A stretch of DNA of 64,000 nt from positions 3,658,001 through 3,722,000 of the forward strand of contig NZ_CP052860.1 of NCBI RefSeq assembly GCF_012935715.1. Direction: 5' to 3'. Numbering within the stretch: position 1 is the first letter of the stretch; the number at the start of each line of letters is the position of its first letter. Positions 37,389-38,877 of the stretch are shown here, in pieces. A model generated the notes under the pieces. It worked only from the letters and a program-made list of their open reading frames with translations. It was not told the origin of the DNA and made no database searches. Origin of the DNA: Pseudomonas sp. ADAK13 (GTDB taxonomy: Bacteria; Pseudomonadota; Gammaproteobacteria; Pseudomonadales; Pseudomonadaceae). The translations under genes and the position numbers were made by a program.

Positions 37389-37544
37389 TTTTGGGTTTGG
37401 GTACATATCCATTATTTGGGTGATGGCTTCGATGGGTTCCGCTCTTACAGCGGGTCACTTTTGAAAGGAGCCCAAAAGTAACCAAAAGGCTCTTGCCCCA
37501 CCACTCGGCACCTCGCTTGGGCTCGGTGTGCCCTTGTAAGATTG

Positions 37545-37680
37545 TTTTCACCTGCTTCAGACCGTAGTGCCCTCTGATTTCGAGATCGTGAGTGAGCATG
37601 GGTCGGAGCAGGTTCCTTCCTAAACTAGTCCGAACGGTTGCCTGGGCGCAAAGCCCGATTCTGCAAGGTTGGACGTGAGG
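37545..37680 (+). ncRNA. Candidate bridge RNA (guide RNA) of the IS110 element
   Basis: The leader folds into two stem-loops. Loop 1 is closed by ACCTGCTTCAGACC (37550-37563) with GGTCGGAGCAGGT (37601-37613). It carries GTGCCCT (37567-37573), identical to the left target half, and GAGTGAG (37590-37596), complementary to the right target half CTCACTC. A GATT-TCGA-GATC hairpin lies between them. Loop 2 is closed by GTCC (37628-37631) with GGAC (37671-37674). It carries ACGGTTGC (37634-37641), identical to the right IS end 38639-38646, and TGCAAG (37662-37667), which pairs with CTTGTA at the left end with one G-T wobble. Hairpin GGGC-GCAAA-GCCC lies between them. Transcript ends are not known from sequence. 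Confidence 0.8.
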
Positions 37681-37688
37681 AAAACGCT

Positions 37689-38630
37689 ATGGACCATAAC
37701 TCTGCGTTCGTCGGAATTGATGTTTCCAAAAACAAGCTCGACTCATTCGTCAGCACTACTGGCCAAGTCGAACAGTTTTCCAATACTCAAGAAGATATCC
37801 AGCGTTTAGCTAAACATCTCAAGGCTCAGGAGCCGGTTTTGGTGGTGCTGGAAGCGACTGGTGGATATGAGCGGCTTGCCGCTGCCGAGCTTTGTGCTGC
37901 TGGATTACCCGTTGTTGTTGTCAATCCCCGTCAGGTTCGTGATTTCGCCAAGGCGACCGGTAGGTTGGCGAAAACCGACGCTCTGGATGCCCAGGTAATT
38001 GCGGAGTTTGCCCAGGCGGTCAAACCCGAGATTCGGGAGATGCCAGATGAACACGCTCGTGAACTGGCGGATCTACTGACTCGACGCCGTCAGCTCATCG
38101 ATATGATCGTGGCGGAAGAGTCTCGACTGAAACAGGCGGTATTCAAGGCACTTCGACGGGACATCAAGGCACATATCGTCTGGCTTCAAAAGCGCCTTAA
38201 AAGCACAGACGATGACTTGCACGAAGCGATCAAAGCTTCGCCGGCTTGGAAGGCCAATTATGATTTGCTGCGCGAGGTATCGGGCGTTGGCAATGTGCTC
38301 GCACTTTCGCTGCTGGCAATGGTTCCGGAGCTGGGCAAGGTTAATCGCAAACAAGTGGCTGCATTGGTTGGTGTGGCCCCTTTTAACTGCGATAGCGGCC
38401 TCTACAAAGGACGTAGACGGATATGGGGTGGTCGAGCTGAGGTGCGAAGTGTCCTTTACATGGCTGTCTTGTCCTCGAAGAGCCATAACCCGGTGATCGA
38501 GAGGTTTTACAACCATCTACTTGCTGCAGGGAAGACGAAGAAGGTAGCGCTGGTGGCATGCATGAGAAAGTTGCTGACGATCCTGAATGCGATGGTGCGC
38601 GATCAAAAGCATTTCGCTGAAATGGCTTGA
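37689..38630 (+). CDS. IS110-family transposase (bridge-RNA-guided recombinase)
   Basis: The 313-aa protein has an N-terminal RuvC-like DEDD domain: D11 ([11 protein letters not shown]), E55 (LEATGGYE), D97 and D100 (KTDALDAQ). A coiled-coil linker spans about residues 115-185. The C-terminal Tnp domain ([32 protein letters not shown]) contains the candidate catalytic Ser236. These positions equal the IS621 residues I recall (D11, E60, D102, D105, S241) minus five after the first, so the enzyme looks intact and IS621-like. The ATG at 37689 has GTGAGG upstream; a start at 37638 would fall inside the RNA loop. Confidence 0.93.
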
Positions 38631-38877
38631 ATTTCGACACGGTTGCTCACTCCGGCTTTGGACCGTGGGCCGCCGCGATGGGCCATCCTTGGCCCAGCGC
38701 GGCTAACCCGGCGTCCTGCCGGGTTACCCACGCTCCAAAGCCTGCGTTCGGCCAGCGTGGTTTAACGGGGCGCCTAAGATCAAGATCAAAAGCAGATCAA
38801 CAGCACAGCGGCCTACAGGCCGGCTTGAGTGGTGTGAAGCAAAAGCAAAATCAAAATCTAAAGCGGGCACGATCCCC

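Follow-up and report, generated by a model that had tools for sequence, protein, structure and literature searches.

The window, a stretch of 64,000 nucleotides from the 7.30-Mb chromosome of Pseudomonas sp. ADAK13, harbors an insertion sequence of the IS110 family (37533..38645, + strand) with a size of 1,113 bp including one copy of a CT core dinucleotide. A leader of 154 nt (37535-37688), a length already given in an earlier note made from the DNA letters alone, precedes a recombinase gene (37689..38630, +). The CT core stands at the left (37533..37534, +) and the right junction (38646..38647, +), is common to target and donor, and is present once in an empty site. In the empty sites of the same genome the left flank runs directly into the right flank with one CT in between; because these sites join both flanks sharing a single CT, the ends of the element are fixed, and identical boundaries were found in 19 copies. 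Besides the window element its genome contains three further full copies, and two other Pseudomonas genomes, G188 and G339, contain seven and eight full copies, which are identical to each other within each genome and share 92% and 94% identity, respectively, with the window element. The identity of copies within genomes suggests recent movement. In the genus sample the element is rare, being detected in 5 of 398 genomes including its own (E ≤ 1e-90). The IS110 element with a bridge RNA leader that the earlier note had described is thus real, and its description as intact agrees with the open reading frame, the full set of catalytic residues, the presence of both ends, and the identity of three of the four copies in the same genome (the remaining copy is 98.9% identical).

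The encoded recombinase has a length of 313 amino acids and contains the RuvC-like DEDD domain and the Tnp domain with a conserved serine that are found in the IS110 group. It matches PF01548 (100.1 bits), PF02371 (58 bits), the NCBIfam family NF033542 “IS110 family RNA-guided transposase” (227.8 bits, cut-off 140), and the PDB chains of IS621 and ISCro4. The residues D11, E55, D97, D100, and S236, which had been noted as retained, are invariant across 21 aligned sequences including that of the window. They align, when counted along the alignment, with D11, E60, D102, D105, and S241 of IS621, which are named as catalytic residues in the available part of PMC11208158. With 154 nt upstream of the gene and 15 nt between the stop codon and the core downstream of it, the element shows the longer upstream non-coding end of the IS110 group, unlike the IS1111 group, whose longer non-coding end lies downstream. 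IS1111 elements also have long subterminal inverted repeats, whereas, of the 38 inverted repeats of at least 7 nt in the window element, the 25 longest include no pair that links the two ends, so that the element fits the IS110 group.

The leader contains a predicted bridge RNA of approximately 130 nt (37549..37680, +; both ends estimated), based on its fold and on the structure conserved in 50 aligned leaders. Four guide-like strings are located exactly where they had been reported, and all of them meet at one CT core. The putative target-binding stem-loop (37550..37613, +), which has an inner hairpin and comprises the conserved helices 1–3, holds the left target guide GTGCCCT (37567..37573, +), identical to positions 37528-37534, and the right target guide GAGTGAG (37590..37596, +), the reverse complement of 38646-38652. 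The putative donor-binding stem-loop (37628..37674, +), likewise with an inner hairpin and made up of the conserved helices 4–5, holds the left donor guide ACGGTTGC (37634..37641, +), identical to the right end of the element at 38639-38646, and the right donor guide TGCAAG (37662..37667, +), which can pair with the left end CTTGTA (37533-37538) with one G-T wobble. When the leader was shuffled 100,000 times with a Markov chain, all four guide strings never occurred together, and at least three occurred in two shuffles. Folding of positions 37541-37688 yielded −54.3 kcal/mol, compared with a mean of −44.15 kcal/mol for shuffled sequences (z = −2.74; 3 of 200 shuffles were as good). A search of Rfam gave no match to the leader, either at E values up to 1 or at the gathering threshold.

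Conservation of this arrangement was assessed with loci from a genome scan (the best 80 of 512 relatives) and a viral scan (45 loci). Parsing of 141 tblastn loci retained 78 and dropped those that started too far in (n = 5), lacked the donor-loop motif (n = 45) or the right donor guide (n = 6), or were cut short (n = 7); in most of the 78 the left donor guide again equals the right end of the element. These loci gave 62 non-redundant leaders, with five opposite-strand loci being skipped, and 50 of them were aligned after 12 had been excluded by eye beforehand, either for a motif within coding sequence (L098, L112) or for a divergent look (L090, L099, L107, L110, L119, L120, L131, L136, L137, L167). 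The earlier note had named missing conservation of the two loops as evidence against its reading; instead, the two loops are conserved and show compensatory changes. RNAalifold predicted 24 base pairs from the 50 leaders, of which 17 show such changes. When the inner hairpin was included (28 pairs), 96.1% of the alignment cells were paired, compared with 83.1% in shuffles and 34–42% with the partners slid, and 183 cells had changed on both sides, compared with 38.7 in shuffles. Changes on both sides occurred in 20 of the 28 pairs, and none of 500 shuffles reached the observed value on any measure.

Another comparison set the element boundaries from the donor guides alone and then compared the target guides with the resulting flanks. 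It comprised the 47 aligned leaders with usable flanks, the window's own element (L049) among them; the aligned leader L056, the broken copy L041, and the contig-end loci L042, L047, L057, and L066 were viewed by eye outside this set. The expectation that guides follow their own insertion sites held for distant relatives; the 47 leaders contain 33 distinct right target guides. The right target guide agreed with its flank at five of five non-core bases in 32 of the 47 leaders (mean of 1.9 for shuffled pairs, largest value 8 in 5000 shuffles) and at four or more in 41 (shuffled mean 5.3), leaving six below that level. For the left target guide, scored as the best of three registers in data and shuffles alike, at least five of six bases agreed in 21 leaders (shuffled mean 2.3, largest value 8 in 3000 shuffles) and fewer in 26. 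This weaker score is partly explained by an automatic left boundary that is implausible in many loci: the boundary derived from donor guides only is unreliable, with offsets above 145 in several loci that were retained among the 47. In two subsets, 20 of 32 and 14 of 23 leaders reached at least five of six bases. In the species of the window, the match of the left target guide has a length of only 7 nt with the core included. As a separate observation made by eye, an element at a contig end of P. capsici (L056), which is 80% identical to that in the window, has other target guides and another flank; its right half matches with one wobble, and its left half is imperfect and fits only with a shift by one base.

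Both flanks of the window element belong to an interspersed genomic repeat of approximately 820 bp, which is roughly symmetrical or nearly palindromic. Its left (37391..37534) and right parts (38646..39337) match an empty copy within the window (13289..14132, with the repeat of approximately 820 bp at about 13298-14119), which has a GTT end at 13422 (+) and a perfect GTG end at 13986-13998 (−). The target sequence is GTGCCCTCACTC, with GTTCCCTCACTC and GTGCCCTCTCTC as versions with one mismatch, and the right part of the occupied repeat contains the unoccupied opposite end GTTCCCTCACTCC (39192-39204, −). Inverted target-like sites were found at both ends in 21 of 26 empty loci fetched, some of which show the same repeat, and 18 of these 21 pair one GTGCCCTCACTC end with one GTTCCCTCACTC end. 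The empty sites in the same genome amount to 39 perfect 12-mers, 75 with GTT, and 131 matching GTNCCCTCNCTCCGG. A 201-bp empty-site query had matches in 45 of 59 sampled genomes of the genus (E ≤ 0.001, many of them weak). The inner inverted pair of the repeat resembles a Pseudomonas REP sequence. No description of the repeat was found by a literature search using related terms and five sequence strings. It may nevertheless have been named in print already, for example among the R0-R200 repeats of P. fluorescens (PMC2718517). The orientation of the GTG ends follows the replication arm, with dnaA at 2.25 Mb, for 31 of the 39 perfect ends (binomial p = 0.0003) when the terminus is taken as the point opposite dnaA; a freely chosen switch point, fitted first, gave 33 of 39. 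Rfam matched the repeat weakly to TwoAYGGAY with 45.6 bits against a gathering threshold of 43 (and with 33.4 bits, below this threshold, in another search), which was dismissed as a resemblance between palindromes, as were two further sub-threshold matches near the leader. The matched segment is the end of the target repeat (38647-38749, −), and the same holds for the ends in L006 and L014; some Rfam TwoAYGGAY matches may be repeat ends.

The copies in the three genomes amount to a natural test of the guides. All 19 full copies, from three Pseudomonas species, are inserted at the same junction GTNCC-CT-CNCTC of the same repeat, and identical leaders at sites not matching the guides, which the earlier note had regarded as speaking against its reading, did not occur among them. 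They carry identical 7-nt target guides, and the 12-bp target is perfect in 13 copies, has one mismatch in six, and has two in none. In the window's genome all four copies occupy a perfect end, and the opposite end of each repeat is GTT and empty. In G188, three of seven copies occupy perfect sites, two differ from the target on the left (GTT, GTA), and two on the right (CTCTC), compared with 6 perfect, 26 GTG-CTCTC, and 1 GTT sites among 33 empty ones. In G339, six of eight copies are at perfect sites and two at GTT, and 52 of 86 empty sites (counted by eye) are perfect; for one of the two GTT copies (L199), the other end of that repeat is a perfect GTG end and unoccupied, which argues against a strict rule. 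Taken over the three genomes, 13 of 110 perfect and 6 of 159 one-mismatch sites are occupied, giving a stratified odds ratio of 4.1 (one-sided p = 0.007) under the assumptions of independent insertions and of flanks unchanged since insertion. With each genome taken by itself, the preference is significant only in the window's genome (p = 0.009; G188, 0.18; G339, 0.34), where the one-mismatch class was obtained as 131 minus 39 sites and 29 of the 39 perfect 12-mers are among the first 100 of the 131 listed. The preference for perfect sites, derived from 19 insertions, represents modest evidence. 

One repeat family hosts all 19 copies, which are therefore not independent tests of the guide, and IS110 elements specific for REP sequences were likened to site-specific recombinases in a 2006 study (PMC1525189, as far as its available part goes). 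Both points would suit a recombinase that reads the target repeat itself, by protein-DNA contacts or through REP-like hairpins, with guide matches being incidental. However, the agreement between guides and flanks extends over the 33 distinct right guides, which come from a variety of hosts and insertion sites, and perfect matches are favored over otherwise near-identical repeat ends across the three genomes, which makes such direct recognition highly improbable. Even so, one could regard the leader structure mainly as a regulator of transposase translation with a secondary guide function, as the start codon lies directly downstream of the leader and regulation through 5′-UTR structure has been reported for ISPpu9 of P. 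putida (PMC8450116, part of the text), but the loops within the covarying helices agree with target and donor, which regulation alone would not bring about, and we give this explanation hardly any weight. A dual role of the leader as guide and translational regulator is possible.

A further comparison is offered by a second type of IS110 element, which occurs at four places in the same genome (L035-L038; near contig positions 3296074, 1951888, 3511164, and 4084959) and whose transposase frames have lengths of 320 amino acids in L035 and 135 amino acids in L036-L038. Its target is AAGCCCG|CT|CCCAC, presumably a REP sequence, and its leader holds AAGCCCG and GTGGGAG, which were chosen by eye with the target already seen. 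The guides of each of the two elements match their own target over 7 nt on the left and at seven of seven positions on the right, compared with 4 and 5 for the target of the other element.

Promoter-like boxes are distributed over the two ends of the window element. A −35-like hexamer, TTGAAT (38627..38632, +), overlaps the stop codon at the right end, and a −10-like hexamer, TAAGAT (37537..37542, +), lies at the left end, with a spacer of 17 bp between them once the ends are joined; each box, recognized as a sequence pattern only, has four of six consensus bases. Among the junctions of relatives with equal spacing from stop codon to core, at least 22 of 23 carry TTGA at this position, and +4 is the start of the best −10 box in 26 of 41 junctions. 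Best promoter scores averaged 8.85 over the junctions compared with 7.34 for shuffled arms, an excess that is inflated because CTTGTA, which contains the first two bases of the −10 box, was one of the criteria for choosing left ends. For IS621, a promoter across the joined ends is described in the available part of PMC11208160. In the integrated element the target sequence stands in place of the −35 box, and we infer that the promoter-like pair is complete only in an excised circle. With the pair split in the chromosome, the leader would therefore probably be little transcribed there from its own promoter, and transcription probably takes place mainly from circles.

Taken together, the window element is almost certainly an autonomous insertion sequence of the IS110 group (IS621-type) that is guided by a bridge RNA as in IS621. 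The RNA-guided reading put forward in the earlier note thus stands, as guides match flanks and loops covary, and leader transcription, RNA binding, and transposition are predicted on the model of IS621. By the IS621 model, the recombinase would excise the element and close it into a circle at the CT core, and the joined ends would build the promoter from which the bridge RNA of approximately 130 nt is transcribed. The target loop of this RNA would pair with GTGCC-CT-CACTC at one end of the interspersed repeat and the donor loop with the joined ends of the element, and catalysis by a tetrameric recombinase would then exchange the strands at the CT core. The locus is a Pseudomonas bridge-RNA element for which guides, target, empty sites, and near-miss sites are all recognizable from the sequence, and with 19 insertions and 250 empty repeat ends, the three genomes make natural guide fidelity testable. 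More tentatively, and with slightly less than even confidence, we suggest that the element is restricted to a widespread Pseudomonas repeat of approximately 820 bp and uses a minimal bridge RNA lacking the 5′ stem-loop. Many copies of this repeat offer two inverted sites one guide-matched base apart, and in this view the genomes would serve as a natural assay of how faithfully guides select their targets in living populations.

The known systems closest to the window element include IS621 of E. coli (PMC11208160 and PMC11208158, both available in part; PDB 8wt6 and five further entries), with which the element shares the DEDD and serine residues at aligned positions, the CT core, a bridge RNA encoded at the left end with the target loop before the donor loop and the left guide before the right, a promoter-like arrangement across the joined ends, and repeats as targets. 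The two recombinases match with 122.6 bits only, and the targets differ. The predicted RNA of approximately 130 nt is shorter than the 177 nt given for IS621 in PMC11208160, and the 7 nt between the −10 box and the stem of the target loop leave no space for the 5′ stem-loop of the IS621 consensus described there. Among 25 leaders with a usable left end this spacing is 7 nt in the window and 6 nt in L070, compared with 24–42 nt in the other 23, 10 of which reach a folding energy of −5 kcal/mol or better; folding covered leaders with spacings up to 42 nt, and seven more had larger spacings. If active, the 313-amino-acid recombinase together with its RNA of approximately 130 nt would offer a compact alternative to IS621. 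The closest solved sequence is the ISCro4 transposase (PDB 9t56; 127.7 bits), which was compared by sequence match alone. Similar to the window element, the seekRNA of the IS110 family member ISEc21 derives from an upstream non-coding region and has its bottom-strand match before the top-strand match, whereas it differs in having a 74-nt RNA with target-matching segments and a recombinase of 358 amino acids (available part of PMC11187229). ISPpu9 and ISPpu10 of P. putida are likewise Pseudomonas IS110 elements dedicated to a genomic repeat, but they target the short REP sequence instead of the end of a repeat of approximately 820 bp (PMC1525189, in the part available). The kind of system is already known, the survey in PMC11208160 (accessible part) having predicted a bridge RNA for 85.7% of IS110 elements; to this the window element, as read from its DNA, adds a well-resolved member that has a repeat target of its own, near-miss sites, and an RNA predicted to be shorter.
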